From a virus, in IMG/VR virus record IMGVR_UViG_3300049432_000213, positions 1 to 37,402 of that record: a stretch of DNA of 37,402 bases. One strand, 5' to 3'. Every line of letters starts with the position of its first letter. The first letter of the stretch is position 1. Made by a program: the position numbers and the translations under genes. Below are positions 3,434 through 28,184 of the stretch, in pieces. The notes under the pieces are model-generated. The model had not been told where the DNA came from. It saw only the letters and a list, made by a program, of their open reading frames with translations, and searched no databases.

Positions 3434-3445
3434 GGGATACCCTTC

Positions 3446-9500: not shown

Positions 9501-10363
9501 CTCCGGCTCGCGAACAGCCCGAGCACCGCGACGCCGGCCAGGAGCGCCGATCCCCACGGACCCGCGAAGAAGCGCGCCGCCGCAGCGCCTGCGATCGCCA
9601 GCCTGCTCTTCGCCGCCGCGTTCTGGTTAGTAGCTACCTCATCGGCCTTCATAGCGCCGGCGTTGACCGCAGCTGCGGCCGTCAAGCCACTCATCGCGGG
9701 GACCGCGGCCCTGTCCGCGACGGCGAGCTGGAAGGTCTTGCCTTCCAGGCTGGCAGTGGCGCGGTCGGCACGGCCGAGCGCGACCGAGTTGGCGATCGCG
9801 GCGCGCCCCTGCTTTGCCAGGCCGTCCGCGCTGTTGCCGCTCGCCTCGAACATCTGTTGGAGCGCGCTGGCGAGCTGGCCGCCCTGCTGGGCGAGAATGA
9901 CGAAGGGGTTGATGCCGAGAGCGGCCTGCTGGCTCACATCCTGGATCTGGAAGCCGATTTGGGTATAGGCGGCGCGCTGGGCGCCGAGGTTCTGCACGTT
10001 CCGGGTGCCCGCGGCCACTGACTCGGCCGAGGCTCGCGCGGCGATCGCGACGGCCCTGGAATAGGTCTCAGCGCCGATCTTGCCCGCGATGTAGGCCCGC
10101 TCCGCCGACTTGACCGCGCGATCGAGCGCGCCGGTTGCGGCCACGGCCGGGTGGGTGGCCCGGACGACCTCGCCGATCGCGGCGGCGTTGACCCGCATCT
10201 GCGCCGCTTGGTCCCTGGTGAACCCAGACAGACGCGAGACCGGGCCTCCGGCCTTGCCGGAGCTCCCCGCCAAGCGGTCGATCGCGGCCGTGCCCTGGCC
10301 GGCACCAGCCACCAAGTCGCTGGCGTCGGCGGTCAGCCTGGCGGAGACGACGAAATCGGTCAT
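6563..10363 (-). CDS. Tail length tape measure protein
   Basis: 1266 residues, the longest gene in the window. It begins MTDFVVSARLTADASDLVAG, typical of siphophage tape measures, followed by long Ala/Gln/Arg helices. A Gly/Leu-rich hydrophobic region lies around residues 800-920 (LGGKFLGGIGSMLGIGGG), and coiled coil returns near the C-terminus. It acts as the ruler for tail length and is expected to pass into the host membrane on injection. By the usual rule of about 1.5 angstrom per residue, the tail would be near 190 nm. It follows the frameshifted chaperone genes by 25 bases, the conserved order chaperone-tape measure-tip. Confidence 0.92.
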   Translation of the reverse strand: MTDFVVSARLTADASDLVAGAGQGTAAIDRLAGSSGKAGGPVSRLSGFTRDQAAQMRVNAAAIGEVVRATHPAVAATGALDRAVKSAERAYIAGKIGAETYSRAVAIAARASAESVAAGTRNVQNLGAQRAAYTQIGFQIQDVSQQAALGINPFVILAQQGGQLASALQQMFEASGNSADGLAKQGRAAIANSVALGRADRATASLEGKTFQLAVADRAAVPAMSGLTAAAAVNAGAMKADEVATNQNAAAKSRLAIAGAAAARFFAGPWGSALLAGVAVLGLFASRSGSAADATDEHAAASRQAISAVDALGQAQSVLGQIFDLSTGKIRSNTEALRANAIMTALNLRVQSQQQINRTAFPMALGQRVGGYLDGLSPGQLLAARAIAPESMSQLQNLRNIAINAGLIPGRRTGAPISRSEAIRQLGLADTSRLPISGMSLAGVLNEREQGEEGLRIANEALEAIRTGRLGERFRQRSSGGGGRRQRRGADQTEFGEDTADRITALSQRFTDTPPQVEAVRRGLADLNDLMTDIEQRKPPNYLALLAQARAARPIIEAGINKPYNDFIAAQEESLRIGALQARGRSDEAEALTQILRLEQQQGPLNAQQREAILANVSALREQQRAVQLLQERQQLYLNTLGETRKGITAIAEAVLGGDAGALIDLPGQLRQSFNRLTAERFVEMTFGPAFRQLEDEITGRNRVRQANEQLATTTDTATAAVASTTGALGDATGALGEFTGALRGAAGAATAPLSGAAQNLAVWNGQAAPANIPNVLSSTGMDAIARGWFNTTEGLGGDQEQIVQAIRSPLITNPRAFFEKMVTGLLTGLLGEQLAGLIGKGVSRGLEGAAMGAMAGGALGSLGIRTSGTGSQLGGAVGNLLGGKFLGGIGSMLGIGGGPLGSILGGLLGGVLPGLFGGSQRGSATITSVDGAVSTRGNNADFRSQSSGLAGGIQNGLQQIAEQLGGQIGAFAVSIGVRDGKFRVDPTGQGRTKTKKGAVDFGDDENAAIMYAIMDAIKDGAVVGLSEAVQKALRSSNDLDKALREALKVDEIETLLRGPIGAIEKQFKDFERQAAERVRIAAKYGFDVLEIEKINAADRLKLEQQVLESRTGALRQLLDDLDFGDLFEGSINDQVARLRKQLASAQAEAEAGVEGAAGRQADLSRSLIALLHEGFGTAGAEYAAGLEQVRSGAERVIDLENQRVKAAMDAAKETNTQLNEANDHLSEQTAVLRGIGGSIENLTAVILDSRYDVSTIDVVRTTQLS

Positions 10364-10388
10364 GACGGCCGCGCCCGGCCGGCTACGA

Positions 10389-11116
10389 TCACTTTTTTGA
10401 CCACTGAGCGATCGCGCCGCCTTCCAGGCTGCGGATGTCCGCGAGGATCTCGGGCGTCAGGGTGACGCTGGTCGCGGCCGCAACCGTAGGCAGCGCCGAA
10501 TAGTCCAGCCCGGTTCGGAACGCCCCCGCCATGCCGGCACCTACCCATCGCCACTGCGTCTCCATGCCGAAAAAGAGGCTCACCGCGGCCACCATGTCGG
10601 GCCAGATTTCGATCCGCTCGTCTTTCGCCGCCGCGAGCCGCGCCAGCAGCTCCGGCGGCACGATCGCGCCGACCGCCCTCAGCTGCTCTTCTGGGGTTGC
10701 TTGGGCGCCGCCTCCGCGCCCGCCGGCCCAGCGGCGGGCGAGGCTTCGGAGTTTTTTTCCCGAACCTCCGCCTGGCCATTCCAGGCCTTGATGTACGACA
10801 TCACCCAACCGAGCAGGAAACCCGGCGCCTGGATCATGATGTTGAGGTTCTTAGGCGTGAACGCAAAGGGCTTGCCATCCTCGCCGACGATCTCCTTCCA
10901 GTCCGTCGAGACCGACCGCACGAAGTCGACCGGGTGGCTCACGCCGCCGCCTGGCGCGCCGCCGTGCAGCGCGACCCGGACGAATTCGTCGAACCGATCG
11001 AGGTCGACGAGCTCGACCTTCATCCGGATCGTGTTGGTGACAGGCTCGCCGCTCTCGTCGAGCGAAGACCATTCGATCGCGCACCAGGCCGACCGGATTT
11101 TGGTGACAACATACAT
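10389..11116 (-). CDS. Tail assembly chaperone fusion made by -1 frameshift (gpG-T type)
   Basis: A second frame, open down to 10389, overlaps the upstream chaperone gene in the -1 frame and has no convincing start of its own. A ribosome slipping at A_AAA_AAC (10757-10751) would pass from ..VREKN to LRSLARRWAGG and give about 242 residues. The extension ends in a region with WRWVGAGMAGAFRTGLDY and LTPEILADIRSLEGGAIAQW, resembling DUF1799-type tail proteins. In lambda and many other siphophages the minor fusion and the major short form together load the tape measure for tube assembly. The layout and heptamer are seen directly; expression ratio is unknown. Confidence 0.85.
10679..11116 (-). CDS. 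Tail assembly chaperone, short form (gpG type)
   Basis: 145 residues read in the zero frame. Starts MYVVTKIRSAWCAIEW, lies 10 bases after the tail tube gene and just before the tape measure, exactly the chaperone position. Central region VDFVRSVSTDWKEIVGEDGK, then an Ala/Pro-rich tail (EASPAAGPAGAEAAP) after the slippery site at codons 121-122. The short product ends 23 codons past the slip site. It is expected to coat the tape measure during tail assembly and to be absent from the virion. Confidence 0.8.
   Translation of the reverse strand: MYVVTKIRSAWCAIEWSSLDESGEPVTNTIRMKVELVDLDRFDEFVRVALHGGAPGGGVSHPVDFVRSVSTDWKEIVGEDGKPFAFTPKNLNIMIQAPGFLLGWVMSYIKAWNGQAEVREKNSEASPAAGPAGAEAAPKQPQKSS
10751..10757 (-). 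promoter_or_regulatory. Slippery heptamer A_AAA_AAC for -1 frameshift
   Basis: On the minus strand the coding reads CGG GAA AAA AAC TCC in frame. The last A of GAA plus AAA AAC gives the canonical X_XXY_YYZ heptamer within an A7 run. After slipping, the next codon is CTC and the second frame is open for 120 codons. Confidence 0.88.
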
Positions 11117-11126
11117 CGGAAAAATC

Positions 11127-12068
11127 CTATTTGGAGGTGATCGTGAAGTCGTCGTTGCCCGCGGAGCTCGGCAGGAACCGCATGGGAATGGTGGCCATCA
11201 AGAAGCCCTGCTCCTCGGGGGTGCTGATCAACCCGATCAGGGCGCGCGCCGCGTCGACCTGAACGATGTTTCCGGCCACGGTGCCGTGGACGAGCTGAAG
11301 CGCCTGCGTCGTGCGGCTGAGCATCTTGGTGTAGTAATTCTTGGTGCCGATGTCGGGGAATTCGACCAGCGCCTCCGCCGTCACCTCGCGGTTGCGGAAC
11401 GCGACCCTGTCGGCCGGCCCGGTGAGCGAGCGCGGCTCCGTCTTCGCGCCGAGCGTGATGACCAGGCGCCGCAGCGGCGGCGAATAGGCGTCGAGCGAAA
11501 AGGTCGTGTTGGCGGTGTTGACCAGCAACGGCTCGGCGAACCCGGTCAGCGTCGGCGCGCCGGGCACCACCTCGGACACGATCCCCGCGGGCGGAAAGCC
11601 CACCATCGAATAGGCGAAGAACGGGATTTCGTCGTCTTCGAACGTCATCGTGAAGCTGCCGCGAGCGCCGAGCGCAGCGACCTTGAGGTTGTCATAGAAC
11701 GGCCATGCGGTCGCCGAAGGGACCCCGGCAGAAATTGGCGTCTGCACCACCGACGCACCGCCGGCCACGCCCGCGTCGAAGCCGCAAACCCTATTGAGCG
11801 GCATCCAGGCCGGCACCGTGGTCGCGGAAACGCCGCTGCCGGCGATCTCGACCTCGAAGCTGAACGGCTTGCGGATCTGCTTGTAGTAGCTCGGGCGGGC
11901 TCCAAAATACTGGCCGTCCAGCTCGCGTACGCCCTCATCGCCTTCGAGCTGCGAGGCGTCGAGCTTCCGGGTGAGGATCGCGTTCGTGCCCACGACAGGC
12001 GCGCTGTCGACGCCCTCCGTCGTCTCGATCTTGAAGAGGAGGAGCTTCTTTTCGCTGCTCTTGGTCAT
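11127..12068 (-). CDS. Major tail tube protein
   Basis: 313 residues. Order and style match the siphophage tail tube family: KKLLLFKIETTEGVDSAPVV at the start, KPFSFEVEIAGSG, an Ig/beta-rich centre (GARGSFTMTFEDDEIPFFAY), and LVITLGAKTEPRSLTG near residue 210. It should polymerise into the tail tube around the tape measure. No sheath gene is next to it, which supports a non-contractile tail. ATGA overlap with the upstream gene; the chaperone pair follows. Confidence 0.85.
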   Translation of the reverse strand: MTKSSEKKLLLFKIETTEGVDSAPVVGTNAILTRKLDASQLEGDEGVRELDGQYFGARPSYYKQIRKPFSFEVEIAGSGVSATTVPAWMPLNRVCGFDAGVAGGASVVQTPISAGVPSATAWPFYDNLKVAALGARGSFTMTFEDDEIPFFAYSMVGFPPAGIVSEVVPGAPTLTGFAEPLLVNTANTTFSLDAYSPPLRRLVITLGAKTEPRSLTGPADRVAFRNREVTAEALVEFPDIGTKNYYTKMLSRTTQALQLVHGTVAGNIVQVDAARALIGLISTPEEQGFLMATIPMRFLPSSAGNDDFTITSK

Positions 12069-12460
12069 TGGTCGGCTGTCCCTTCATTCTGCGCGGCCTG
12101 GGCGGCCTGGGCGGCCTTGGCCTCCCGCGCGGCTTCGATCGCCGCGATCATCGCCGTCTTGCCGCTGCTGGCGCGTGGCGGCGGAAGCCCCTCGCGCCGC
12201 GCTGTTTCGGTGAGCTCGGCCTTCGTTTGCTCGCCGAGCGGCTTCACGACGCCGGCCTCCGCCTGGAGCCGTTCGGCCGTTTCGGCGATGCGCTCGGGCT
12301 CCAGCAGCGAGCCGGGATCCTCGTTCAGGCCGGCGGCGACCAGCGCTTCGGCGCGAAGCCGATGGTTGAGCGGGAGGCCGTGGGCGTCGAGATAGACGCC
12401 GTCCGGACGCGGCTCGGGCGGCGCCCATGCTTCCGCGGATGGTTGATTTTTGTCGCTCAT
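12065..12460 (-). CDS. Hypothetical protein with SAP/HeH-like C-terminus
   Basis: 131 residues. The N-terminal half is Pro-rich (AWAPPEPRPDGVYLDAHGLP). The C-terminal half (LGEQTKAELTETARREGLPP, then SSGKTAMIAAIEAARE) resembles short helix-extended-helix motifs found in several phage head and tail proteins; the 117-residue protein at 14379 ends in a similar motif. The tail is Ala/Gln-rich. Its start overlaps the upstream stop as TAATG. Location between tail terminator and tube suggests a neck or tail completion role, but this is not established. Confidence 0.65.
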   Translation of the reverse strand: MSDKNQPSAEAWAPPEPRPDGVYLDAHGLPLNHRLRAEALVAAGLNEDPGSLLEPERIAETAERLQAEAGVVKPLGEQTKAELTETARREGLPPPRASSGKTAMIAAIEAAREAKAAQAAQAAQNEGTADQ

Positions 12461-12873
12461 TAGCTCACCTTCCTGATCAGACGTCCGGTCCTAAAGCTCA
12501 CCATCCAGCTCAGCGTGCTTCCGCTGACGGACAGCATCCGAGCCCCCACATAATCGCAGCCGAGAGCCCCCTCCGGGTGGGTCCAGCCGAGCAGCGCGGC
12601 GATGACCTCGTCCTGCAGGCCGGCGAGCTGGTCGGACGCCCGATCCTGGTTGGCCGCGGCGCCCTCGATCATGATGACGACGCCGAAGCGAAACTCAGTC
12701 TTCTGGCTGTGCGCTCCTCCGTCCAGGCGGTTCGGCCCGGCAGTCTCGCCATCCGGCACCACGTAGAACGCCGGCAGGATCGGCGTGGTCTTAAGGGCCA
12801 TGAGCTCAAGCACGCCGTGGACACGCTTGAGGCCTTGCTCCTTCAGCCGCTCGACGATCGGGGCGATCTTCAT
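12460..12873 (-). CDS. Tail terminator-like protein
   Basis: 137 residues starting MKIAPIVERLKEQGLKRVHG. The pattern (helical start, PAFYVVPDGETAGPN, FRFGVVIMIEGAA, QDEVIAALLGWTHPEG, LSWMVSFRTGRLIRK) matches siphophage tail terminator or Gp37/DUF1834-like proteins. These cap the tail tube and join it to the head. The frame is open far upstream, but ATG 12873 overlaps the previous stop as ATGA and the upstream part is an Arg-rich shadow of the neighbouring gene. Position between the morphogenesis protein and tail tube fits. Confidence 0.7.
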   Translation of the reverse strand: MKIAPIVERLKEQGLKRVHGVLELMALKTTPILPAFYVVPDGETAGPNRLDGGAHSQKTEFRFGVVIMIEGAAANQDRASDQLAGLQDEVIAALLGWTHPEGALGCDYVGARMLSVSGSTLSWMVSFRTGRLIRKVS

Positions 12874-13382
12874 GCCGGCGCTCCACCCGGCTGCAGCGCG
12901 CCGCGGATATGGTCGGTCAGGATCTCCGCCATCGCGCCTTGGTCGACCTCGTCGAAGCCGACATAGGGGCGGGCCGGGATGAAAACGGACGACACGACAC
13001 GGCCGCCGAAGCTCAGGGCCTTCTTGGCTTTGGCGCGAATGGTGCCGCCGAATTGATGGATGGCCGCGTAGACGGCGGCGCCGAACGAGCGCTCCGGGCC
13101 GACTTCCGCGAAATCCGGGCCATAGGCCGAATGGATCGAGCTCTTGAGGTCGCCGGTCAGGGTGAGTGTCTGCCCGCCCTCCTCGATCGCCCGTTGGCTG
13201 GGCTTCCACGATATTCCATCCGGACCCGACTCGGTCTCGAAGCGCCGCTTGGTCACGGCCTCGACGTGCACCGCGATCTCCTTCATCGCGGGCGTCAGGT
13301 CGCTCGCGCTCGCCGCAGCCTCCCGGAGCGCAGCCGTCAGATTCTCGCGGATCTCGACGCCGATCAGGATGCCCTGGGCCAC
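12870..13382 (-). CDS. Phage virion morphogenesis protein (Mu gpG type)
   Basis: 170 residues from GTG. It contains typical features of the virion morphogenesis family: KEIAVHVEAVTKRRFETESG, DGISWKPSQRA, LTLTGDLKSSIHSAYG, VYAAIHQFGGTIRAK, PARPYVGFDEVDQ. The family acts in tail completion and head-tail joining. It follows the gp36-like gene by one base and overlaps the terminator by 4, matching the Mu-like order. Confidence 0.88.
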   Translation of the reverse strand: MAQGILIGVEIRENLTAALREAAASASDLTPAMKEIAVHVEAVTKRRFETESGPDGISWKPSQRAIEEGGQTLTLTGDLKSSIHSAYGPDFAEVGPERSFGAAVYAAIHQFGGTIRAKAKKALSFGGRVVSSVFIPARPYVGFDEVDQGAMAEILTDHIRGALQPGGAPA

Positions 13383-13383
13383 G

Positions 13384-14103
13384 TCAATAATCGCTCAGGC
13401 CATCGGGATATTGGCGAGTGCCGGCCGAGACGGCGATCGGCGCCGAGCTGGGCGCTTCGGCGGGCGCCTCGAGCGCGGGCAAGGGCAGCTGGCCGGCGCC
13501 GATCCGCTCGAGCAGCTTAAGGGCCGCTTTGGCGGCGTCCGATACCCCTTCCGGAGCGCCGCGCGGGTAGAGCCTGGCGCGCGCCATGTCGGCGATCGCC
13601 GTCTTCACGACGGCCGGCGCCTCGACCAGGGGAACGGCATAGCGGTTGGCGATATAGGCGTCGGCGACCGCCTGCACGGCGGCCAGGGCGTTGACCAGGA
13701 GATCCCGATCGATGCGGCCGTCGCCGGCCAGGTCGGTCATCCTGACCACTTCCTCGAGGCCGAAATTTGCGACGAATTCGGCTATGGAGAGATAGCCGTC
13801 GCCGCCGTCCGGCATCGTCCAGGCCGCGTCGATCACCGCCGCCTCGAGCTCGGCCTCGCGGATCTCGCCGGCGGCGTCCTCGACCCGCGCGGTGACCAAG
13901 TAACGCTCGCCGTCCGTCCCGCCGATCAGGCTCACGAACAGCATGCCGGCGGCGAGCTCGCCTGCGACGGTCAGGTTGGCGCTGCCCGGGACCAGGTTGC
14001 GCTTCACGGACGCCACCGACACGATCGCAGCGATCGCGGCGTCCCCGTCGAATGCGACGTGCCGTTTCAGCTGCTCTGCAGGCTGTTTGATGTGCGTTTG
14101 CAT
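13384..14103 (-). CDS. DUF1320 (Mu gp36-like) head-tail connector with extra N-terminal domain
   Basis: 239 residues. Residues from about 103 match DUF1320/gp36 (YLSIAEFVANFGLEEVVRMT, IANRYAVPLVEAPAVVKTAI, DMARARLYP). This is normally the whole protein, about 130-150 residues. Here it is preceded by ~95 residues of beta-type sequence (NLTVAGELAAGMLFVSLIGG, TDGERYLVTARVEDAAGEI) resembling the small phage fibre-tail adaptor domain usually encoded separately. There is a Pro/Ala-rich tail after residue 205. Probably a neck or head-completion protein. The fusion is read directly from one open frame. Confidence 0.8.
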   Translation of the reverse strand: MQTHIKQPAEQLKRHVAFDGDAAIAAIVSVASVKRNLVPGSANLTVAGELAAGMLFVSLIGGTDGERYLVTARVEDAAGEIREAELEAAVIDAAWTMPDGGDGYLSIAEFVANFGLEEVVRMTDLAGDGRIDRDLLVNALAAVQAVADAYIANRYAVPLVEAPAVVKTAIADMARARLYPRGAPEGVSDAAKAALKLLERIGAGQLPLPALEAPAEAPSSAPIAVSAGTRQYPDGLSDY

Positions 14104-14109
14104 GGCGCG

Positions 14110-14376
14110 CTACCTGCGGCGACGGGCGCGGCGATGACGACGACGCACGCGGCGGCTCAGGTGGAGACGGTTCGGCCGGAGGCGCCGCCTGGGGGGCCGG
14201 TTCTTGGAGCGGCGATTGCGCGGATCCGGCTCGCCCCAATCAAAGAGCTGAACGCGCCGTCGCGCCTCGCACGCGGTATATTGGTAGGTATGAGTCGGGC
14301 CCGCCGCGATCGCCGGCATGCTGAACATGCAGGCGGCGGCTAGCGCCACCCCGGCACGCCCCCCCAACAGCCCCAC
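14110..14376 (-). CDS. Small exported Arg-rich protein in head operon
   Basis: 88 residues from GTG with AGAAGG about 10 bases upstream. An apparent signal peptide (GVALAAACMFSMPAIAA, cleavage after AIAA) is followed by HTYQYTACEARRRVQLFDWG and an extremely Arg-rich end. It lies 2 bases after the previous gene and 6 bases before the next, so it is in the operon. A secreted protein among capsid genes is odd. It could be a membrane-acting or superinfection factor, or the Arg-rich end could be read-through of non-coding sequence. No family recognised. Confidence 0.45.
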   Translation of the reverse strand: MGLLGGRAGVALAAACMFSMPAIAAGPTHTYQYTACEARRRVQLFDWGEPDPRNRRSKNRPPRRRLRPNRLHLSRRVRRRHRRARRRR

Positions 14377-14378
14377 GG

Positions 14379-14732
14379 TCAGCCGGCCTTCTTGGCGCGA
14401 CCGGCCTCGATCGCTGCTCGGATCTTGGCGAGATCCTTCACATTTGGATTGAGCCTGATTTTCTCGGCGGCGGCCGTGGCGCGCAGCTCGGCGTCATCCT
14501 GCTCCGCAAGCGGCTTCGGCTCGGTCACGGCGCCGGGCGGAGGCGGAGGTGGCGGAGGCGGAGGCGGAGGCGGAGGTGGCGGAGGCGGCGGCGGTGCTGC
14601 CTGGCGCGTGGCGCGAGCGACTGCCCCGAGGCCTACAAGGCGCTCGCCATCTGCGGCGTCCAGCTCGATCGTCCCTGAGGTGTGGCGCTTCCCGCCCTTC
14701 CGGACGGGCGAGAGGATGTCGTAAAGGGCCAT
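14379..14732 (-). CDS. Small head protein with long poly-proline linker
   Basis: 117 residues from ATG 14732, chosen for its GGAG Shine-Dalgarno 9 bases upstream; a longer open frame enters the capsid gene and spacer. Layout: N-terminal MALYDILSPVRKGGKRHTSG, an uninterrupted run of about 20 prolines (residues ~47-66, from repeated GGAGGCGGAGGTGGC-type DNA), then a C-terminal HeH-like motif (DDAELRATAAAEKIRLN, KDLAKIRAAIEAGRAKK). Directly downstream of the major capsid gene and its hairpins. Possibly a head accessory or connector; poly-Pro may act as a rigid spacer and slow translation. Confidence 0.7.
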   Translation of the reverse strand: MALYDILSPVRKGGKRHTSGTIELDAADGERLVGLGAVARATRQAAPPPPPPPPPPPPPPPPPPPPGAVTEPKPLAEQDDAELRATAAAEKIRLNPNVKDLAKIRAAIEAGRAKKAG

Positions 14733-14757
14733 GACTTGTCTCTCCAGTAGCTGTGAA

Positions 14758-14829
14758 CGGTTCCGGGAGGGGCCGTGCGATCGGGCCGCTTTCGGAACCG
14801 GCGGGGCGGGCTGAGCCCCGCTCCCGCCG
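14758..14829 (-). promoter_or_regulatory. Double hairpin downstream of the major capsid gene
   Basis: First hairpin: CGGTTCCG at 14758-14765 pairs with CGGAACCG at 14793-14800, continued by two G-T pairs, two normal pairs, a G-G mismatch and GGCC/GGCC. Second hairpin: GCGGGGC at 14801-14807 with GCCCCGC at 14815-14821. The same two-hairpin plan lies upstream of the capsid gene at 15802-15871. No U-run follows, so RNA stability or processing is as likely as termination. Confidence 0.7.
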
Positions 14830-14847
14830 GCTATTGGATCGAAAGGC

Positions 14848-15777
14848 TCAGACGACGTCCTGGAACAGGAAGCCGGCATCGGGACCGACGACTTCCGGCG
14901 ACCATTCGTCGAACACGTCGTTCATCCAGCTGCGCACGCCGCGCTCGAAATAGGCGGGCTGGACGAACGGGTGGTTGGCGAGGCGGTAGGTGTAGCCGAA
15001 GGCCGGGATGTTGATGTTGGCCTGGCCCTTCGGCGGAACGTAGGCGAGGATCGCGTCATCGCCCCAGACGTCGGAGCTCGCTCCATCGTCGTCGTCGAAG
15101 ATCGCGTCGCCGACCAGCACCTCGGCGACGTCGAAATATTGGGCAAGCATGGCATCGGAGATCGCGGACGAGGTCGTGTGCTTGAAATTGTCCCTGATCT
15201 TGGGGTGGACGCGAAGCCGCGAGGCGACCTTCGCGCCCAATTCGAGCACAGTCGGGCGGCGGCCGCAGCGGCCGCGGATGACCTCCTTGGCGTCGTTGAC
15301 CTGGGCGAGCGGATCGGAATCGTCGTCCGACCACAAGTCGTCGCCCGCCGGCGCGTCCTTGTTGCTCGCGGCATAGGTGGCGGCGTTGCGCGCCGCGGCG
15401 GCCTGCTGGATCTCGCGCTCGAGCGCGATGACGGCAAGGACCGTGTCGACGCTCATGGTCAGCAGGTCGATGCCGGGCACCTCCATCGCCTCGTCCATAT
15501 GCTCGACGGGCGTCTTGCCGGCGAGCGCATATTGCGAGAGCTGAACCGGTTTTCCCTCATAGCCGAAGCTGACCTGGGCGATGCCGCCGCCGGGTGCGCG
15601 CCGGATCTTGTAGCGCCGGAAGGCCTCGCGGCCGAACTCGATCCGCTTCGCGGCGCGCGTCGGCATGGGAGCGATCGGCAGGAGCCGGTCGCCGATCAGG
15701 CCGGGCTGGCTGTAACCGCGGCTATGGTTGGTGAGGATTGGGTCAATGACCCGCGCCTGAGACGTGCTCATGTTCAT
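14848..15777 (-). CDS. Major capsid protein
   Basis: 309 residues. It closely matches in style a widespread phage major capsid family: DPILTNHSRGYSQPGLIGDR, KRIEFGREAFRRYKIRRAPG, VSFGYEGKPVQLSQYALAGK, VPGIDLLTMSVDTVLAVIAL, VNDAKEVIRGRCGRRPTVLE, VHPKIRDNFKHTTSS, VWGDDAILAYVPPKG. It forms the icosahedral shell, probably with the HK97 fold. It sits between decoration protein and head accessory genes, and uniquely in this operon is flanked on both sides by large spacer hairpins. A second ATG two codons in (15771) could also serve as start; AAGGG precedes the first. Confidence 0.92.
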   Translation of the reverse strand: MNMSTSQARVIDPILTNHSRGYSQPGLIGDRLLPIAPMPTRAAKRIEFGREAFRRYKIRRAPGGGIAQVSFGYEGKPVQLSQYALAGKTPVEHMDEAMEVPGIDLLTMSVDTVLAVIALEREIQQAAAARNAATYAASNKDAPAGDDLWSDDDSDPLAQVNDAKEVIRGRCGRRPTVLELGAKVASRLRVHPKIRDNFKHTTSSAISDAMLAQYFDVAEVLVGDAIFDDDDGASSDVWGDDAILAYVPPKGQANINIPAFGYTYRLANHPFVQPAYFERGVRSWMNDVFDEWSPEVVGPDAGFLFQDVV

Positions 15778-15801
15778 CGTCGTCTTGCCCTTTGCTCTTG
15801 T

Positions 15802-15871
15802 CGGTTCCGGAAGGGGCCGCGGTTACGGCCGCTTCCGGAACCGGCGGGGGACAGGCTGGGCCAGCCCCCGC
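15802..15871 (-). promoter_or_regulatory. Double hairpin upstream of the major capsid gene
   Basis: CGGTTCCGGAAG at 15802-15813 pairs perfectly with CTTCCGGAACCG at 15832-15843. Inside it, GGCCG pairs with CGGCC after a G-G mismatch. A second hairpin follows: GCGGGGG at 15844-15850 with CCCCCGC at 15865-15871. It lies between the decoration and capsid genes and is the counterpart of 14758-14829. Confidence 0.75.
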
Positions 15872-15883
15872 GCGGCGCCGGCC

Positions 15884-16231
15884 TTACAGCGCCAGCAACA
15901 CCTCGATCTCCACACCGGCGGCGCTGGCCGCCTGCAGCGCGTAGCCGGCGATCTCGCCGACGCCGCCATGAGCGATCGCCTTGCCGGCCGCGTCGGTCTT
16001 GACCGGCGTCAGGCCCTTGGCGCCCAGCGCGATCGCCGCGCCTGCCTCGACCTTGGTGGTGCCGAGGACGTCGACCGGGAACGCCTCCCCGATCGCGGCG
16101 GCGTTGACCGAGACGCCCATCGGCTTGGCGCCGGCAACGTCGCACTGCGAGCCGTCGAAATCGACGAAGCGGGCGCGGGCGACCGCCACGGTGGCGACGC
16201 TGGTGAGGGTGAGGATCGGCTGTTTCTGCAT
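15884..16231 (-). CDS. Capsid decoration protein (DUF2190-like)
   Basis: 115 residues starting MQKQPILTLTSVATVAVARA, with AAGGA about 10 bases upstream. The Gly/Ala/Val beta-rich pattern (GVSVNAAAIGEAFPVDVLGT, VEAGAAIALGAKGLTPV, GEIAGYALQAASAAGVEIEV) matches small head decoration/stabilisation proteins of the DUF2190 type, normally about 110 residues. It should bind the outer capsid surface. Position between protease/scaffold and capsid gene is the conserved one. Confidence 0.85.
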   Translation of the reverse strand: MQKQPILTLTSVATVAVARARFVDFDGSQCDVAGAKPMGVSVNAAAIGEAFPVDVLGTTKVEAGAAIALGAKGLTPVKTDAAGKAIAHGGVGEIAGYALQAASAAGVEIEVLLAL

Positions 16232-16253
16232 CTTCGTCTTCCTTCGTGGCTGG

Positions 16254-16322
16254 GCCGGCTTGTCGGAGCGGTCCGCCAGGCGGGCAGCTCGGAGAAGCCG
16301 GCGGGGCCTGGCGCCCCGCCGG
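16254..16322 (-). promoter_or_regulatory. Double hairpin after the protease/scaffold gene
   Basis: GCCGGCTT at 16254-16261 pairs with AAGCCGGC at 16295-16302. It partly overlaps a very strong hairpin: CCGGCGGGGC at 16298-16307 with GCCCCGCCGG at 16313-16322, ten pairs and a five-base loop. Shared bases mean the two could switch. It resembles the two capsid-flanking elements in sequence (CTTGTCGG, CCGGCGGGG) and placement. Confidence 0.7.
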
Positions 16323-16333
16323 AACTCGGTTCG

Positions 16334-16840
16334 TCAGCCTCCCGCCTGCTTGACCGCGTCGAGGTAGCTGAGCTCCTTATTGGCGGCCTGAAGCTCGAGC
16401 GCCTTATGGTGGGTGGCCAGCTTCTCCGGGTCTGTCTCGTAGCCCGCGGGCGCGGCGAAGCTGGCCGCGCCGCCCTGCTCCTCTTCGGTCGCCGCAGCCG
16501 CCTCGCCGAAGTTGATGACGGGATGGGCGCCGTCGAACAGCTTCTTGAAGGCCGCGATCGGCGTCATTTCGCCCATGGCCTCGCCGAAGCTGACGGTCGC
16601 GGTGACCTCGAGCTCGTCCATGACGCCGACGACGAGCTCTTTGCCGGCCGGGGCGAGCTTGCCGGCGGCGACGAGCTGCTCAGCGAACGCCAGATTGGAG
16701 GCGTGAAGCGCCTGCCGCACGGTCGCGCTCGCGGTCTGTTCGCGCGTGGCAACGTCGGTCTCACGCGTGGCGAGGTCCGCCTCGCGGCGGGCGAGCTCGG
16801 CTTCGCGCTCGGCGAAGTCGACAGTGGTTGCGTCGGACAT
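16334..16840 (-). CDS. Nested scaffold protein from internal start (Mu Z / lambda Nu3 type)
   Basis: An in-frame ATG at codon 156 of the protease gene is preceded by GGAG seven bases upstream, a better ribosome site than that of the full gene. It would give 168 residues starting MSDATTVDFAERE, covering exactly the coiled-coil scaffold half and none of the protease half. Mu, lambda and many phages make scaffold this way. Seen in sequence: start, site and domain border. Inferred: that it is used. Confidence 0.72.
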   Translation of the reverse strand: MSDATTVDFAEREAELARREADLATRETDVATREQTASATVRQALHASNLAFAEQLVAAGKLAPAGKELVVGVMDELEVTATVSFGEAMGEMTPIAAFKKLFDGAHPVINFGEAAAATEEEQGGAASFAAPAGYETDPEKLATHHKALELQAANKELSYLDAVKQAGG

Positions 16841-17305
16841 AGGTTTCTCCAGGGCTTGGGTTTCGATGGTGACGAGCCCCCGCTCTTCTTCGGCAAAATG
16901 GACGAGGCCGAGACCTTTCACGGACGGCGCCGCGGCGCCGAGAAAGCCGACATGCTTCAGATAATAGCTGCCGGGCTTCGGGTTGCCCGGATGGGTGGGC
17001 GGGTAGAAGCTCGCCGAGACCTTCGGATAGCGGCGGGCGCGGACGGCCTCCGCGAATGCGGGCTCCAGCGTGTCCGGATCCGCATCGGCGACAAGATGCC
17101 CGTCCTCAACCGCGAGGCTGTGCACCCAGCCGAACGCGGGCGCATCCAGCTTGGGGTGCCCGACGACCAATGGCGCGGGGTCGCTCGCCGCATCGTAGGC
17201 GAGCGCCGATCCTTCGAGATCGGCCTGGCTGAACTCCACGCTCTGTCCGTCGACAGCGGTAAAGCGACCAGGCTTGAAAATGCGAATGCGGGACGGCGTT
17301 GGCAT
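16334..17305 (-). CDS. Prohead protease-scaffold (Mu gpI type)
   Basis: 323 residues. The first ~150 residues match Mu I-like phage proteases: SRIRIFKPGRFTAVDG, PLVVGHPKLDAPAFGWVHSL, YPKVSASFYPP, SYYLKHVGFLGAAAPSVKGL. The rest is a helical scaffold part (FAEREAELARREADLATRET; then KLAPAGKELVVGV). The protein should guide capsid assembly and then cut scaffold and itself. It is the first gene of the leftward structural operon. No Shine-Dalgarno stands out before ATG 17305, and the late promoter, presumably within 17306-17422, was not identified. An internal start makes the scaffold alone. Confidence 0.88.
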   Translation of the reverse strand: MPTPSRIRIFKPGRFTAVDGQSVEFSQADLEGSALAYDAASDPAPLVVGHPKLDAPAFGWVHSLAVEDGHLVADADPDTLEPAFAEAVRARRYPKVSASFYPPTHPGNPKPGSYYLKHVGFLGAAAPSVKGLGLVHFAEEERGLVTIETQALEKPMSDATTVDFAEREAELARREADLATRETDVATREQTASATVRQALHASNLAFAEQLVAAGKLAPAGKELVVGVMDELEVTATVSFGEAMGEMTPIAAFKKLFDGAHPVINFGEAAAATEEEQGGAASFAAPAGYETDPEKLATHHKALELQAANKELSYLDAVKQAGG

Positions 17306-17422
17306 GCCGCTTGGATAGGGGGAGCAGCTGAGACGCCCGTGCTTCCGCTTACGGACGCAGGGTGCGGCTAGGGCCGGCGCAGCATTGTGACGCGGGGAGC
17401 CGGCGGGCGCAAGCCGGGTTCG

Positions 17423-17590
17423 TTACGGCGCCTCATCGGCTTCGATCTCGGTGAAGACATCGAGGAACAGATTGCCGGTGTGCGGGTCCCGGCTGGCTAG
17501 CTTCGCCCGCTCGGCGGCGGCGGCGGCGGCGCGGCGCGTAGGATGCCAGCGTCCCTTTCGCGTCGGCGTCGTCCAGCGATAGCGCGGCAT
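17423..17590 (-). CDS. Small basic protein (55 aa)
   Basis: 55 residues: a basic N-terminus MPRYRWTTPTRKGRWHPTRR, an Ala run and the acidic end NLFLDVFTEIEADEAP. There is no Shine-Dalgarno; its ATG overlaps the stop of a 19-codon ORF as TGATG, so translation is probably coupled. It is read toward the protease gene, 117 bases before it. The sequence looks coding (balanced C-terminus), but the family is unknown. It may be the first gene of the late leftward transcript or a small regulator. Confidence 0.5.
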   Translation of the reverse strand: MPRYRWTTPTRKGRWHPTRRAAAAAAERAKLASRDPHTGNLFLDVFTEIEADEAP

Positions 17591-17649
17591 CAATGCACGA
17601 AGCCCGCGCGCTTGCCTTCTTGTTCGGCTTCTGTTCCCCTGCCGGCCAT
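17590..17649 (-). CDS. Possible 19-residue leader ORF
   Basis: ATG 17649 to TGA 17590, product MAGRGTEAEQEGKRAGFVH. Its stop overlaps the start of the 55-residue gene as TGATG, suggesting a coupling leader. Only a distant AGGGG precedes it. It could be chance. Confidence 0.25.
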   Translation of the reverse strand: MAGRGTEAEQEGKRAGFVH

Positions 17650-17682
17650 GTCGCGAATCGCTGACCCCTGTTGAAGGCGGTG

Positions 17683-18051
17683 ATGTTCACCCGCGAGCAG
17701 CTGCTGTGCAAGGCCCTCCTCGCCCTGGAGGATGTCTGCGTGACTTGCGCGAGGGACCCGGCGCCCAAATCGTTGATGCTTCGCTTCATCCTGGCGTGGC
17801 TCTACCAGGAGAGTGGCGCTCATCCGTCCAACAGGTGGATCTTCGATAGCTTCTGGCAGGCGGTGACCAGGCCGCGCGCGACAGCTGACCATGATCGGTT
17901 CGTCGATGACTATTGCCGGACCACGAGCGCGCGGTCCGCGCTCAGCGGGATTTGCCGGGAAGTGGGGTACGTCGCCGACGTGGATTTCACCCAAATGATG
18001 GCCGATGCGCGCCGCGCTGCAATTCCGGGGGTCGGGGTAGACCTAAAATAG
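17683..18051 (+). CDS. Hypothetical protein (122 aa) in the accessory region
   Basis: 122 residues from ATG 17683 with GAAGG eight bases upstream. Helical and well balanced in composition: FTREQLLCKALLALEDVC, KSLMLRFILAWLYQESGAHP, RWIFDSFWQAVTRPR, SGICREVGYVADVDFTQMM. No membrane segment or signal peptide; family not recognised. It stands alone on the plus strand, convergent with the secreted protein gene and divergent from the 55-residue gene. It may be an accessory gene expressed independently of the phage operons. A minus-strand open frame over the same DNA is shadow. Confidence 0.65.
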   Translation: MFTREQLLCKALLALEDVCVTCARDPAPKSLMLRFILAWLYQESGAHPSNRWIFDSFWQAVTRPRATADHDRFVDDYCRTTSARSALSGICREVGYVADVDFTQMMADARRAAIPGVGVDLK

Positions 18052-18112
18052 GGCCAGGAGGCTCTGTGCAGCCTGCCCACGCGTGGAGGAAGGCTGCGCC
18101 GGGGGAAAGTCG

Positions 18113-18157
18113 CCCCCCCCCGGGCCCGAACGCGCGCTGGTGGCCGCTTTTTCGGCC
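18113..18157. terminator. C9 tract and hairpin between convergent genes
   Basis: Nine C at 18113-18121 run into CGGGCCCG. The hairpin GGCCG-CTTTTT-CGGCC at 18142-18157 abuts the stop of the minus-strand gene. It has T in the loop but no U-tail in either direction, so it is a weak terminator candidate. The 103-base gap holds nothing else visible. Confidence 0.35.
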
Positions 18158-18721
18158 CTAGCGCCCGGCGTCGGATCGCCCTCGGTCGTAGGCTTCGCAG
18201 TCCAGCTGCAGCCGGCCGCGCTGCTCATCGCTCAGCTGGATGGCCCGGGCGACGCGATCGAGCCAGTCGGGAGAGCCCCGCTCGCGCTGTTCGCGCGCCT
18301 GCCCGCAAATGGTGCTGATCGCTGCGGAATAGGTGCTGGGTGCGTCCGCCGGCACCGGATCAGGCCTCGCCGACCGGCTGTTGCAGGCCGCGTTCACGAC
18401 CCGCATGGCATGTCCCGGCGGCGCGAAGGGCCGCGCTGCCAGCCGGTGGTTCATCAGCTCGCGCCAGCGACGATCATAGATGGCGACGTTGCGGACGCGG
18501 AGCTGCCGAGCCGAACAGTCGACCTCGATCCGGCTGACATAGAAGACGTCCTCGCCGCCGGCCGCGCCGTCGATGCGGAACAGAATTGACCGGTAGCGGC
18601 CGTTGTCCAGGACGCTGTTGGTGTCGAGCCATGCCTGGCCGCCCTCGATCTGATAATGCTCCCAAGAAGGCGCCGGCCCGGCAGGCGCGACGAGCAGGGA
18701 GGCCAAGGCCAGCAACATCAT
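18158..18721 (-). CDS. Secreted protein downstream of repressor, possible lysogenic conversion gene
   Basis: 187 residues. The N-terminal signal peptide (MMLLALASLLVAPAGPA) predicts export. The mature part contains AWLDTNSVLDNGRYRSILFR, VFYVSRIEVDCSARQLRVRN and several Cys, resembling surface-adhesin-E-like or similar periplasmic domains in which a Tyr/Trp strand and a conserved Cys recur. It starts 24 bases after the repressor stop on the same strand, so it is probably expressed in the lysogen. Roles such as superinfection exclusion or altered host surface are inference from this expression context. Confidence 0.65.
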   Translation of the reverse strand: MMLLALASLLVAPAGPAPSWEHYQIEGGQAWLDTNSVLDNGRYRSILFRIDGAAGGEDVFYVSRIEVDCSARQLRVRNVAIYDRRWRELMNHRLAARPFAPPGHAMRVVNAACNSRSARPDPVPADAPSTYSAAISTICGQAREQRERGSPDWLDRVARAIQLSDEQRGRLQLDCEAYDRGRSDAGR

Positions 18722-18745
18722 CCTTTGTTCATCCTTCCGGCCTGC

Positions 18746-19456
18746 CTAAATCTTACGGACGATGCCGGCGACGCGGCCCACGACCTGGACTTCGCCATCG
18801 ACCGCATGGATCGGCGAGACGGCCGAATTATCGCTGTTGAGCTGCAAGTCGCCACCCGGCCCCTGCCGCAGCCGCTTGATCATCCCCCAACCGCCATAGC
18901 TCATCGCCCAGATCCGGTCCTGCTGGCGCGGCGTCCGATCGGCCAGGTCGATAATGACCAGGTCGCCGTCCAAGATGGTCGGCATCATAGAGTCACCTTG
19001 GCCGCGGGCGACGATCAGTTCGGTTGGGGGCGAGGCAGTGAGGTTGCGCAGCCAGGAGCGGCTGAACGGCACTTGGCGCACAACCGGCCAGTCTTCGATC
19101 ACCGAGCCCCCGCCCATGGAATAGCTGACCTCGACCTCCGGCAGCAGGACCGCGTCCAACTCCTCGGCCAATTCCAAGCGGCGCGCAGCGTCGGCCGGGT
19201 CAATCTCTGCGGGTTCGTCGCTGGGTACATGGCTTGGATCCAGCGCGAGATCCGCGCGCCAGCCTGGGAACGTCGGAAAGGCGGTGCGGAGCTTGTCGAT
19301 CGTCGGCTGGCTGATCCTCGTGGTAGCCTTACCATTGAACGCCCGGAGGATCGTCGAGGGTGTGAGCTTGGCGCGCTGAGCTACCGCGCTCGGGGCCAGC
19401 TTCGCCCAGGCGCAAAGATTGCGGATCAGCAGGCGGTCGTTCTCAAGCCCCGTCAT
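18746..19456 (-). CDS. Phage repressor, HTH plus S24 peptidase-like domain
   Basis: 236 residues from ATG 19456; the frame is open upstream but that part crosses the control region and the Ner-like gene. The N-terminal HTH is at about residues 15-55 (AVAQRAKLTPSTILRAFNGK). The C-terminal LexA/CI fold has Ser156 in GQGDSMMPT and Lys194 in GMIKRL, the catalytic dyad of S24 proteins. No Ala-Gly or Cys-Gly cleavage pair is visible in the linker (about 70-150). It should hold lysogeny by binding the palindromes upstream of its own start and the early operon. Confidence 0.9.
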   Translation of the reverse strand: MTGLENDRLLIRNLCAWAKLAPSAVAQRAKLTPSTILRAFNGKATTRISQPTIDKLRTAFPTFPGWRADLALDPSHVPSDEPAEIDPADAARRLELAEELDAVLLPEVEVSYSMGGGSVIEDWPVVRQVPFSRSWLRNLTASPPTELIVARGQGDSMMPTILDGDLVIIDLADRTPRQQDRIWAMSYGGWGMIKRLRQGPGGDLQLNSDNSAVSPIHAVDGEVQVVGRVAGIVRKI

Positions 19457-19549
19457 CCAGGCTTGGCTAGCAGAGCCCGGACTCTGGCGCTGTTTGCAAG
19501 ATTGCAAATTATCGTTTGCATCGGTTAGCAATAATGCTAACCCAGCGGC
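19457..19549. promoter_or_regulatory. Divergent early/repressor control region with two palindromic operators
   Basis: Between the repressor and the Ner/Cro-like gene lie two perfect inverted repeats: TTTGCAA-GA-TTGCAAA at 19493-19508 and GGTTAGCA-ATAA-TGCTAACC at 19523-19542. An extra half-site-like TTTGCA lies at 19515-19520. The local DNA is AT-rich against a GC-rich background. TTGCAA (19502-19507) could be a rightward -35, and GATAAT on the minus strand near 19508-19513 a leftward -10. Two different palindromes suggest separate sites for repressor and Ner/Cro-like protein. Confidence 0.8.
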
Positions 19550-19771
19550 ATGGATCGCACCCGCCCCAACCGGAAGATCAGGCCCACGGACCTCGCGAAG
19601 CTCCTCGGCTGCAGCCTGCCCTACGCCAGCCAGCTCATCGCCGGAAAGCGGCCGCGCAAGGTCGCCACTGCCCTCCGGATCGAAGAGAAAACTGGTCATA
19701 AATTCGGCCCCATCGCGAACGCGACCGATGAAGAGGTCAGCCTGCTGCGCAAGTTCGGAGAGGTCGCATGA
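19550..19771 (+). CDS. Ner/Cro-like DNA-binding protein
   Basis: 73 residues. A helix-turn-helix spans about residues 13-35 (TDLAKLLGCSLPYASQLIAG), with a basic stretch KRPRK. First gene of the rightward operon, divergent from the repressor, the place of ner in Mu and cro in lambdoid phages. It probably turns down repressor and early transcription by binding one of the adjacent palindromes. The start ATG lies seven bases after the second palindrome, so binding there would block initiation directly. Confidence 0.8.
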   Translation: MDRTRPNRKIRPTDLAKLLGCSLPYASQLIAGKRPRKVATALRIEEKTGHKFGPIANATDEEVSLLRKFGEVA

Positions 19772-19875
19772 ACAGGCGGCCTCCGATTGAAGAGCAGGGA
19801 ATCTATTCGGCCCCGCAACATTGCGAAAGCCCAGATCGTCCGCTGCGGACTCGCTTCGGGACATTTGCCCGATGA
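19768..19875 (+). CDS. Small ORF (35 aa) between Ner-like and transposase genes
   Basis: MNRRPPIEEQGIYSAPQHC then a basic end. Its ATG overlaps the Ner-like stop (ATGA) and its TGA overlaps the transposase ATG, filling the gap exactly. That double coupling supports translation. No family is recognised. It may serve mainly to couple transposase translation to the regulator, or encode a small regulator of transposition. Confidence 0.55.
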   Translation: MNRRPPIEEQGIYSAPQHCESPDRPLRTRFGTFAR

Positions 19876-21674
19876 TGCCACCGGGGGGTCATCTTAGCGC
19901 GGCCGAGATCGCGGCGCTTCAGCTGCCGGGGCTGCCCGGCTCCAAGAAGGGCGTGTTGAACCGCGCCGAGGCCGAGCGGTGGAGCTGGATCGAGCGGAAG
20001 GGCCGCGGCGGAGGGCGGCTCTACGCCATCGCCGATTTGCCGGAGCAGGCCCGCGCCGTGCTGGAGCAACGGACGGCGAAGCTGATCCCCGCCAATCTCC
20101 GCCCGGTCGGCCGACCCCAAGGGTCGGACTTCTTCACGAGGAACCCCGAAATCGCCGACGCCGTAGAGGCGCTGATCGCCGAGCAGTCGCGGTCGGCCAT
20201 GCGGGTGTTGGAGCTGCTATCGCGCAGATTCCACGTCCTGCCCTCCCGCCGCTCCCTCAGCCGCTTCATCGCCAAGCTGGAAACCGAGAAGGCCGCGCTA
20301 TTGGCATCAACGCGCAACCCGGACCTCTTCAACAGTCGCTACCGGATATCGCTCGGCCGCGCCGATGGTTCGGTCACCCATGCCAACCAAGTCTGGGAGC
20401 TGGACACCACGCCCGTGGACGTTCAGCTGAAGGGCGGCCGCAAGGCGATCCTCGGAGTGATCGACCGCTACTCCCGCCGCGCCCGCTTCCTCGTAGCGGA
20501 CAGCGAGAGTGGGCAATCCGTCCGCCGTCTCCTTATCGACACGATTCGGGCTTGGGGCGTGATGCCCGAGACCGTCATGACCGACAACGGCTCGGGCTAC
20601 ATCAATGGCTCGATCATCTCCGCCCTCGAAACCCTCGGCATCGAGCATTTCCGCTGCCCGCCCGGCAGCCCTTGGAAGAAGCCCTTCATCGAGCGGCTCT
20701 TCGGCACATTCACCCGCGAGCGCGCCGAGCTGCTTGACGGCTATTCCGGTCACAACGTGGCCGAGGCCCAGGCACTACGGTCCCGCGAGAAGAAGCGGAC
20801 GGGCAAGGCGGTGATCCTGCCGAGCATGGAGGCGGACGAGCTGCAGGCGGTCCTCGATGCGTGGTTGGACGGCGTTTACCACCGCCGCGAGCATAGCGGG
20901 ATCCGCGCCGCGCCGCTCGATCGCTGGCGCCAGTCATGCGGCCTCTCGACGAAAGCGCCCTCAGAGGACGTCCTCCGCATCGCCCTGTCCAAGCTGATCG
21001 GCTCGGCGAAGGTCGGCAAGCGCGGCGTCCAGTGGAAGCATGGCCGCTACTGGTCGCCGCCGCTCGCGCCGTGGATAGGCCGGATGGTCACCATCCGGCG
21101 CGATGAGGACGAGCTGGGCGCGATCTTCGTCTTCGACGAGAATGGCTCCTTCATCGACACGGCGATCAATCACGAGCGCGCCGGCATCTCCGAGGAGCAG
21201 TTCGCGCGCGCCGCTCGCCGGCACCAGGACGAGCACATGAACCAGGCGCGGGCGGAGCTGCGCCAAAAGCAACGCGCCTTCCGCTTCGAGGATGCGCGCG
21301 ACCAACTGCTCCGCGACGATGCCCTTGCCGCCGGCAAGCTCGCCATCCTCCCCGGTCGAACGGAAGCGCGCTCCACGCCCCAGCTCGACAGCATCGCCAC
21401 GGCCCCGGCCCCGGCGGTCCCCGACCAAGCCCGCCTTGATGACGCCATGCGCCGGACAGCGCCGAGGCGCGCCGCTGAACCGTCTACCGCGGAGAAGGTC
21501 GCCTGGGCCGATCGCATTCTCCGCGCCGAGCTGGCCGGCGAGGACGTCGATCCCGCCGAGCTGGCCCGGGCGCGGCTATTCGCTTCGACCACCGCCTACC
21601 GCGCCCAGAAGGCGCTCATGGCGCCCTTCCAGCCCTCAACCCCCACCCACGCCGCAAGGAGGCACTCCGCATGA
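19872..21674 (+). CDS. Mu A-like DDE transposase
   Basis: 600 residues from ATG 19872, chosen by its 4-base overlap; a TTG further upstream is less likely. The N-terminal Mu-type winged HTH (about 8-60: LSAAEIAALQLPGLPGSKKG, WSWIERKGRGGGRLYAI) should bind phage ends. The catalytic core has D178 (WELDTTPVD), D238 (MTDNGSGY) and E274 (KKPFIERLFG), with 35 residues between the last two. A Mu-type C-terminal barrel domain follows (WKHGRYWSPPLAPWIGRMVT), then an Ala/Arg-rich end that would contact the ATPase. It performs integration and replicative transposition. Confidence 0.95.
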   Translation: MMPPGGHLSAAEIAALQLPGLPGSKKGVLNRAEAERWSWIERKGRGGGRLYAIADLPEQARAVLEQRTAKLIPANLRPVGRPQGSDFFTRNPEIADAVEALIAEQSRSAMRVLELLSRRFHVLPSRRSLSRFIAKLETEKAALLASTRNPDLFNSRYRISLGRADGSVTHANQVWELDTTPVDVQLKGGRKAILGVIDRYSRRARFLVADSESGQSVRRLLIDTIRAWGVMPETVMTDNGSGYINGSIISALETLGIEHFRCPPGSPWKKPFIERLFGTFTRERAELLDGYSGHNVAEAQALRSREKKRTGKAVILPSMEADELQAVLDAWLDGVYHRREHSGIRAAPLDRWRQSCGLSTKAPSEDVLRIALSKLIGSAKVGKRGVQWKHGRYWSPPLAPWIGRMVTIRRDEDELGAIFVFDENGSFIDTAINHERAGISEEQFARAARRHQDEHMNQARAELRQKQRAFRFEDARDQLLRDDALAAGKLAILPGRTEARSTPQLDSIATAPAPAVPDQARLDDAMRRTAPRRAAEPSTAEKVAWADRILRAELAGEDVDPAELARARLFASTTAYRAQKALMAPFQPSTPTHAARRHSA

Positions 21675-22441
21675 CCGATCTTTCCCTTCAGCCGAGGCTG
21701 GCGCTGGGCGACCGCCTCACCGCTGGCTTCGCCCAGCTCACCAATATGGCGCTGGGCCTGCAGACCTTCCTCGACTGCGCGGAAGCCGGTGCCGGCATGC
21801 CGCGGATCGGCGTCCTCTACGGCCATTCGGGTTACGGCAAGAGCGTCGCCATGGCCTTCACCGCCCAGCGTACTGGCGCGGCCTATCTCGAAGCCAAGTC
21901 GATCTGGACGCAGCGGTCCCTGCTCGAAGCGATCGCCGAGGAGCTGGGGATCACCATGCTTCAGCGCAGCGCGCCCCGGATCCTGCAGCAAGTTATCGAC
22001 CAGCTGAACATGGATCCCCGCGGGCTGATCGTCGACGAGATGGATTACCTAGTTGGCAAGCAGCACGTCGAGATCCTGCGCGACATCCACGACGCCACGA
22101 CCGTCCCGATCCTGCTGGTCGGCGAGGAAGCGTTGCCTCAGAAGCTGAAGAGCTGGGAGCGCTTCCACAACCGCATTCTCGTCACCACGCCAGCGCAGCC
22201 GGCATCGCTGGACGACGCGCTGAAGCTCCGCGCCCATTATTGCCCGCGGGTCGAGATCGCCGACGACCTGGTCGAACAGATCGTCACCGCCTGCCGGGGC
22301 GTCACCCGGCGCATCGTGGTCAATCTGAAGAACGCCGAGCGGCTCGCGATGGAGAGCGGCGCTGCCGAGATCGACGCGGCTTGGTGGGGCGGTCGCCCGT
22401 TCCAAACCGGCGACGTCATGGCGCGCAGGCTGGCCGCGTGA
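21671..22441 (+). CDS. MuB-like AAA+ ATPase, transposition target selector
   Basis: 256 residues. Walker A GHSGYGKS at 51-58 and Walker B GLIVDEMD at 118-125; LLVGEEALPQKLKSWERFHN follows like sensor/arginine regions of this ExeA/MuB family. It lacks the long N-terminal HTH extension of Mu B (312 residues). Overlaps the transposase gene by 4 bases. Expected to bind target DNA with ATP, deliver it to the transposase and give target immunity. Confidence 0.92.
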   Translation: MTDLSLQPRLALGDRLTAGFAQLTNMALGLQTFLDCAEAGAGMPRIGVLYGHSGYGKSVAMAFTAQRTGAAYLEAKSIWTQRSLLEAIAEELGITMLQRSAPRILQQVIDQLNMDPRGLIVDEMDYLVGKQHVEILRDIHDATTVPILLVGEEALPQKLKSWERFHNRILVTTPAQPASLDDALKLRAHYCPRVEIADDLVEQIVTACRGVTRRIVVNLKNAERLAMESGAAEIDAAWWGGRPFQTGDVMARRLAA

Positions 22442-22716
22442 TGGGCCAGAAGCTCACCGCCCTCGCCGATAGCCGCGGCGTCATCACCTTCCAGCACGAG
22501 CGGAAGGCTCCGGACGGCCTGATCTCCTTCGCCCGCGGATGGTCTAAGCCGCTGAGGGAGAATGTCGAGGTCAACGCGCGCCATGCCTATGACGGCAAGA
22601 CGCTGCTCGTTCCGGGCATCCCCGAGGCTGAACACGACGACGACGCGCTCGACGCGCTGGAACGCTTCGGTCTGCTGATCAAGATGCGGCTCGACGGGCT
22701 GCAGGGATGGCCGTGA
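22441..22716 (+). CDS. Hypothetical early protein (91 aa)
   Basis: MGQKLTALADSRGVITFQHE to the end RLDGLQGWP. Mixed alpha/beta, acidic patch EAEHDDDALDALERFG. The start overlaps the MuB stop as TGATG and the end overlaps the next gene. No motif recognised. Small proteins right after MuB are common in B3-like phages and mostly uncharacterised. Confidence 0.6.
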   Translation: MGQKLTALADSRGVITFQHERKAPDGLISFARGWSKPLRENVEVNARHAYDGKTLLVPGIPEAEHDDDALDALERFGLLIKMRLDGLQGWP

Positions 22717-23925: not shown

Positions 23926-23927
23926 CC

Positions 23928-28168: not shown

Positions 28169-28184
28169 TTTCGCGAGGGCTTTC

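Follow-up and report, generated by a model that had tools for sequence, protein, structure and literature searches.

The late head operon of a Mu-like transposable phage carries a repeated double hairpin beside its cement (decoration) and major capsid genes, and 14 copies of this element, found in seven Mu-like phages with two to three copies per phage around capsid genes, keep their pairing through two-sided sequence changes. The element stands before the cement gene, before the capsid gene and, in the phage studied here, also after the capsid gene. We give about an even chance to the reading that it acts as an intercistronic boundary element in the RNA, to the benefit of the cement and capsid messages. 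Only for a few model phages is it understood how a single polycistronic late mRNA gives rise to hundreds of capsid proteins and few of their neighbours. This question of capsid stoichiometry becomes testable with a repeated, covarying element tied to exactly the two high-copy genes, and with a post-capsid hairpin that recurs across unrelated capsid types, GTA-like loci included.

Double hairpins of the late head operon

The window, that is, the whole stretch of DNA analysed (IMG/VR record IMGVR_UViG_3300049432_000213, 37,402 nt), is a Mu-like transposable phage. One side of its genome encodes a repressor, MuA-like transposase, MuB-like protein, Gam, GemA, terminase, Mu-type portal and MuF, and the other side the head protease, cement, major capsid and gp36-like proteins along with more late genes. 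The minus strand (1-19864) carries the genes for head protease, capsid and tail, and the plus strand (19821-37402) those from the transposase to portal and MuF. This divergent layout is common to G001, G003 and G005 (inverted in the last); in G002, portal, MuF and protease are together on one strand. Among named phages, the capsid proteins closest to that of the window are those of YPCBV-1, RcapMu, RcWaterboi and RR1-B, at 42-45% identity. With the single capsid protein as a query, no close relatives were found in the searched genome contigs, and no cultured host emerged from them. An open reading frame at 35652-36494 (plus strand), the real start of which is probably further downstream, matches Com-like zinc-finger translational regulators in its C-terminal part.

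The genes around the elements encode the head maturation protease (16334-17305; PHROG 976, E = 1.1e-81), lying upstream, the cement protein (15884-16231; Pfam Phage_cement_2, E = 1.9e-10), the major capsid protein (14848-15777; PHROG 1005 major head protein, E = 2.7e-85; Pfam Phage_cap_E) and, downstream of the capsid gene, a product with no function assigned (14379-14732, from the list of open reading frames), relatives of which occupy the same place in other phages. All four genes lie on the minus strand, so the printed sequence has to be reverse-complemented to give the mRNA. Within the last gene, a GGCGGA/GGTGGC repeat (14536-14598) gives rise to a run of about 20 prolines in the product.

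In the mRNA, the order is stop codon, some 9-23 nt, hairpin A, hairpin B without any linker, a Shine-Dalgarno sequence directly after B, and a start codon 13-31 nt behind the end of B. The element occupies the ribosome-free gap and leaves the ribosome footprints of both neighbours open. Hairpin A is GC-rich and has about 7 bp or more in 14/14 copies, whereas hairpin B follows the plan CRGUUCC-nn-AAGCGG-C-CG-loop-CG-A-CCGCUU-nn-GGAACYG, with internal mismatches.

The first-pass annotation had proposed two-hairpin elements at 15802-15871 and 14758-14829 and a third, related one at 16254-16322, and folding of the mRNA strand against 200 dinucleotide shuffles bears out all three; the double hairpins are real and far above chance. 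The pre-capsid element (15802-15871; -55.3 kcal/mol, z = -7.4) consists of hairpin A (15844-15871, minus strand), a GCGGGGG...CCCCCGC stem behind the cement stop codon, and hairpin B (15802-15843, minus strand), in which 12 bp, a C-C mismatch and 6 bp are formed by arms that are 94% complementary. The post-capsid element (14758-14829; -46.8 kcal/mol, z = -4.2) has hairpin A at 14800-14828 and hairpin B at 14759-14800, and the pre-cement element (16254-16322; -42.4 kcal/mol, z = -2.6) has hairpin A at 16298-16322 and, at 16255-16301, the most diverged hairpin B, with one extra pair (all minus strand). The covariance model R1, described below, matches them on the minus strand at 15788-15866 (68 bits; this copy is a member of the training set), 14739-14822 (55.8 bits) and 16241-16320 (47.5 bits), respectively. 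In a genome-wide z-score scan of four full-length phage records (80-nt windows, coarse grid), the best-folding segment of each record was located at a capsid-gene flank.

Some details of the first reading had to be revised, because its pairing changes belong to the plus strand. The mismatch shared by the first two copies does sit at the same place in both, but as mRNA it reads C-C, the G-G being that of the plus strand. Likewise, the changes from A-T to G-T and from G-C to G-T, thought to preserve pairing, are both A-C mismatches in the mRNA of the 14758-14829 copy, where they weaken hairpin B and the predicted fold opens. RNA covariation between the two window copies alone was accordingly rejected, and structural conservation needed other evidence.

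Covariation among related phages

The covariation check on homologous spacers that the first-pass annotation called for was run on the 14 copies, and the signal across the seven phages is real. Five phages with capsid proteins 68-79% identical to that of the window (L003, L004, L005, L015 and G001) have the same element before the cement gene, and all except L003, which has lost it, also keep the pre-capsid copy. In the protease-cement spacer of L003, hairpin A is present as an exact tandem duplicate (a unit of about 28 nt) ahead of hairpin B, which from the sequence is a recent duplication. R1 was built from 12 copies; when 850 kb of phage genomes and related loci were searched, it recovered the twelve training copies, with no further strong matches in that set. 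In L270, an outsider to the training set (51% capsid identity across the portion available), R1 found two copies located exactly before the cement and capsid genes (E = 6e-6 and 4.5e-8). The L270 cement gene (about 2548-2900), as called here, has a reading frame without a clean spacer before the capsid gene, possibly owing to a frameshift or an assembly error, and both hairpin elements are intact.

The 14 copies were aligned with MAFFT without use of structure. Two-sided changes occur in 8 of the 18 pairs of hairpin B, a number reached in 0/500 shuffles, and the covariation score is 0.183 compared to 0.094 in shuffles (again 0/500), counts that do not amount to a strict probability because copies within a phage are paralogous and the phages are related. 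Pairing holds in 87% of cells and drops to 27-52% once the 3' partners are slid by 1-3 columns. The compensatory changes are therefore above chance, as expected of a cis-acting structured RNA, and the held-out L270 copies agree. The comparison covers few phages with paralogous copies in each, all from sequence. Of the earlier proposal of an RNA device, what stands is a conserved structured element that marks capsid genes, on the strength of covariation, the held-out copies and the absence of the element elsewhere; the pairing evidence originally offered for it came from the wrong strand.

A rival reading is an inverted repeat acting at the DNA level, either as a protein-binding dyad or as a boundary for recombination or gene exchange, and without an RNA role. 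Both strands of the window elements fold about equally well, a G-T pair is retained at each of the two positions that differ between the window copies when the plus strand is read, and the exact tandem duplication of hairpin A in L003 would also be consistent with such a repeat. Strand assignment from the balance of G-U and A-C was attempted and abandoned: the counts are 12 versus 5, or 12 versus 14 with the recurrent C-A mismatch included, and do not reveal the selected strand. Because of this, an RNA role rests on orientation, on position relative to stop codon and Shine-Dalgarno sequence and on the paired changes. The orientation relative to the genes is constant, the site is always between the stop codon and the Shine-Dalgarno sequence, and a recombination linker needs no two-sided compensatory changes; a purely DNA-level role thus appears very unlikely.

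No Rfam family scored above its gathering threshold in the whole window, and with E-values up to 10 the region 14000-17000 gave only unrelated sub-threshold matches. With at most 18 pairs plus mismatches, hairpin B is to be compared with the nearly uninterrupted duplex of roughly 20 bp or more expected of an RNase III site, although it abuts hairpin A and stacking is possible. GC-rich hairpins are also a feature of REP/BIME-like elements, which lie between operon genes and could block 3' exonucleases. REPs, however, are dispersed in host genomes, whereas the double element occurs in just two or three spacers within a single phage operon. In agreement with this, R1 revealed no dispersed copies in 298 genomes of the order of G008 (a contig titled Sphingomonadales; E <= 0.01), a search with strict filters in an order that may or may not include the phage's own host, and a host repeat of this type was rejected. 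The search gave two matches, one behind a capsid gene (L163) and one in a long palindrome (L164). The latter (L164:1501-1612) is a long, near-perfect palindromic intergenic repeat (CTCCCGCTTGCGGGAGGGG) on a chromosome of that order and is unrelated to the double-hairpin element.

Post-capsid hairpins and the question of termination

The double element is not essential, because three phages with capsid proteins 75% identical (L013, L014 and L016) have no pre-capsid copy, and the pre-cement and pre-capsid spacers in the wider family are mostly unstructured and 10-14 nt long. A single strong post-capsid hairpin is the simpler theme behind it, and spans Mu-like, HK97-type and GTA-like loci. Across 111 non-redundant loci, the mean z is -1.18 after the capsid stop and about +0.2 after the protease and cement stops. 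Strong hairpins follow the capsid gene in 55/131 Mu-like loci, the cement gene in 14/124 and the protease gene in 13/121 (a redundant set). In the order of G008, they were found behind the HK97-type capsid genes of 22/30 GTA-like loci (the best-scoring loci, usually one per genome, the GTA assignment being inferred) and of 17/27 prophage-like loci, compared to 3.5% of control segments inside HK97-type capsid genes. In loci L165-L220, the strong hairpin behind HK97-type capsid genes looks like a general feature and is often terminator-like.

The post-capsid hairpin of RcapMu occupies the position of the window's post-capsid copy and has a similar plan (a CGGUUUC-AG-GAGCGGGCGG stem, z = -4.5), and relatives of RcapMu in Rhodobacter genomes give weak R1 matches at the same spot. 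RcapMu, however, has a single hairpin and lacks hairpin A, its pre-cement and pre-capsid spacers are 10-12 nt long, and the likeness is one of position and plan, with any homology putative.

These simpler hairpins raise the possibility that the elements are leaky terminators, with RNA polymerase pausing or being released at A, behind the capsid (and cement) gene, and B being a remnant or reusing the U-tract, so that transcripts with the capsid gene would outnumber those with the genes behind it. U-rich tails are frequent on post-capsid hairpins of relatives (11/55 Mu-like, 8/22 GTA-like and 10/17 HK97-type prophage-like), about a third of which are terminator-like. Right behind an HK97-type capsid gene, L163 (1501-1572) has a U-tailed A hairpin followed by a B-like hairpin; the U-tract of the first is the 5' arm of the second, which ends in the Shine-Dalgarno region of the next gene. 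The likeness of L163 to the double element (39 bits) may be due to convergence. Known phages also place terminators at this position. The only phage terminator of T7, the late T-phi, is right after capsid gene 10, and RNase III sites (R3.8-R18.5) lie between genes (PMC5592923). Putative terminators, by prediction, stand behind the capsid gene of JG068 and LIMEzero (PMC3765740), and the P22-like phage L has intra-operon terminators of no known role, according to the authors (PMC8022706). An RNA-seq report on the B3-like phage Fc02 mentions a terminator limiting the structural cluster (PMC9936078). Against this, hairpin A has the GC-rich stem of an intrinsic (Rho-independent) terminator in all 14 copies but is followed in the double elements by GGUUCC or similar and not by a U-run, and the window copies likewise have no U-run behind hairpin B. 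Moreover, terminators placed before cement and capsid would lower the capsid message, not raise it. Leaky termination is therefore a possible but rather unlikely explanation. The earlier observation that U-tails are absent was correct for both hairpins, and its corollary, that simple termination is less likely, is valid for the double hairpins but not for those post-capsid hairpins of relatives that are U-tailed.

In the window as in T7 with its T-phi, a structured RNA marks the edge of the capsid gene within a polycistronic late mRNA, and the T7 structure favours the capsid message (PMC5592923). Yet T-phi is a single terminator for T7 RNA polymerase found only behind the gene, whereas the double element lacks the U-tract and has copies also before cement and before capsid. 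In JG068, LIMEzero and phage L, as in the window, the head module closes with a hairpin (PMC8022706, PMC3765740), but theirs are single predicted terminators and not a repeated, covarying double hairpin. Our literature searches on capsid hairpins of Mu-like phages found nothing. Given the terminators behind capsid genes in T7, JG068 and LIMEzero, we take the post-capsid hairpin to be the general device, serving in partial termination or as a 3' stability barrier. The double hairpin would be the elaboration of one clade, in which the U-tract is gone, a second hairpin guards the 5' side and extra copies stand before cement and capsid. An origin of hairpin A from a decayed or leaky terminator is plausible, because post-capsid hairpins of relatives are often U-tailed. 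The double element is a new version of a familiar theme and no new kind of device.

Proposed role at the cement and capsid genes

The preferred reading, suggested by the sequence, is a processing site or stability cap that would raise capsid mRNA. Hairpin A would cap the upstream 3' end as an exonuclease stop or trimming endpoint, perhaps as a decayed leaky terminator, and hairpin B would cap or insulate the downstream 5' end with the ribosome site kept open, protecting the message behind it once cleavage or decay has set in. In this model, the segments for cement and capsid would outlive the rest of the polycistronic mRNA and be decoupled from their neighbours, segment-wise stability being the most likely net effect; longer-lived segments would fit the high copy number of both proteins. 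We infer that the element forms in vivo, stabilises the cement and capsid messages and raises their expression, whereas its sequence, fold, covariation, position and restriction to these spacers are shown by the sequence comparison.

Com of Mu is an RNA-binding translation activator, and the Com-like zinc-finger domain encoded by the window phage is consistent with an operator, at which a host or phage RNA-binding protein would set cement and capsid translation jointly through feedback or late activation. Hairpin B keeps sequence beyond the needs of pairing (GUUCC, AAGCGGC and the recurrent C-A mismatch) and adjoins the Shine-Dalgarno sequence at two or three genes. The hairpin loops are not conserved, however, the Shine-Dalgarno sequence is not sequestered, and the likeness among copies may reflect recent common descent. 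Because G005 has a Com-like gene but not the element, the zinc finger was rejected as a specific partner, and we regard an operator as quite unlikely.

The least expected feature of the element is an alternative pairing of only three base pairs. Upstream, the CRG triplet between the hairpins can pair with a CYG and so extend A, as 12 of 13 copies allow; control offsets allow it in 1-4 of 13. Downstream, its alternative partner is the CYG closing B, available in all tested copies but one. Conceivably, though with distinctly low probability, the element is a small two-state RNA in which A and B compete through the shared CRG and which coordinates cement and capsid synthesis; if so, the structure before one gene could be altered by a ribosome, nuclease or protein acting at the gene ahead of it. 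In the single copy with a changed CRG triplet, both pairings are lost.
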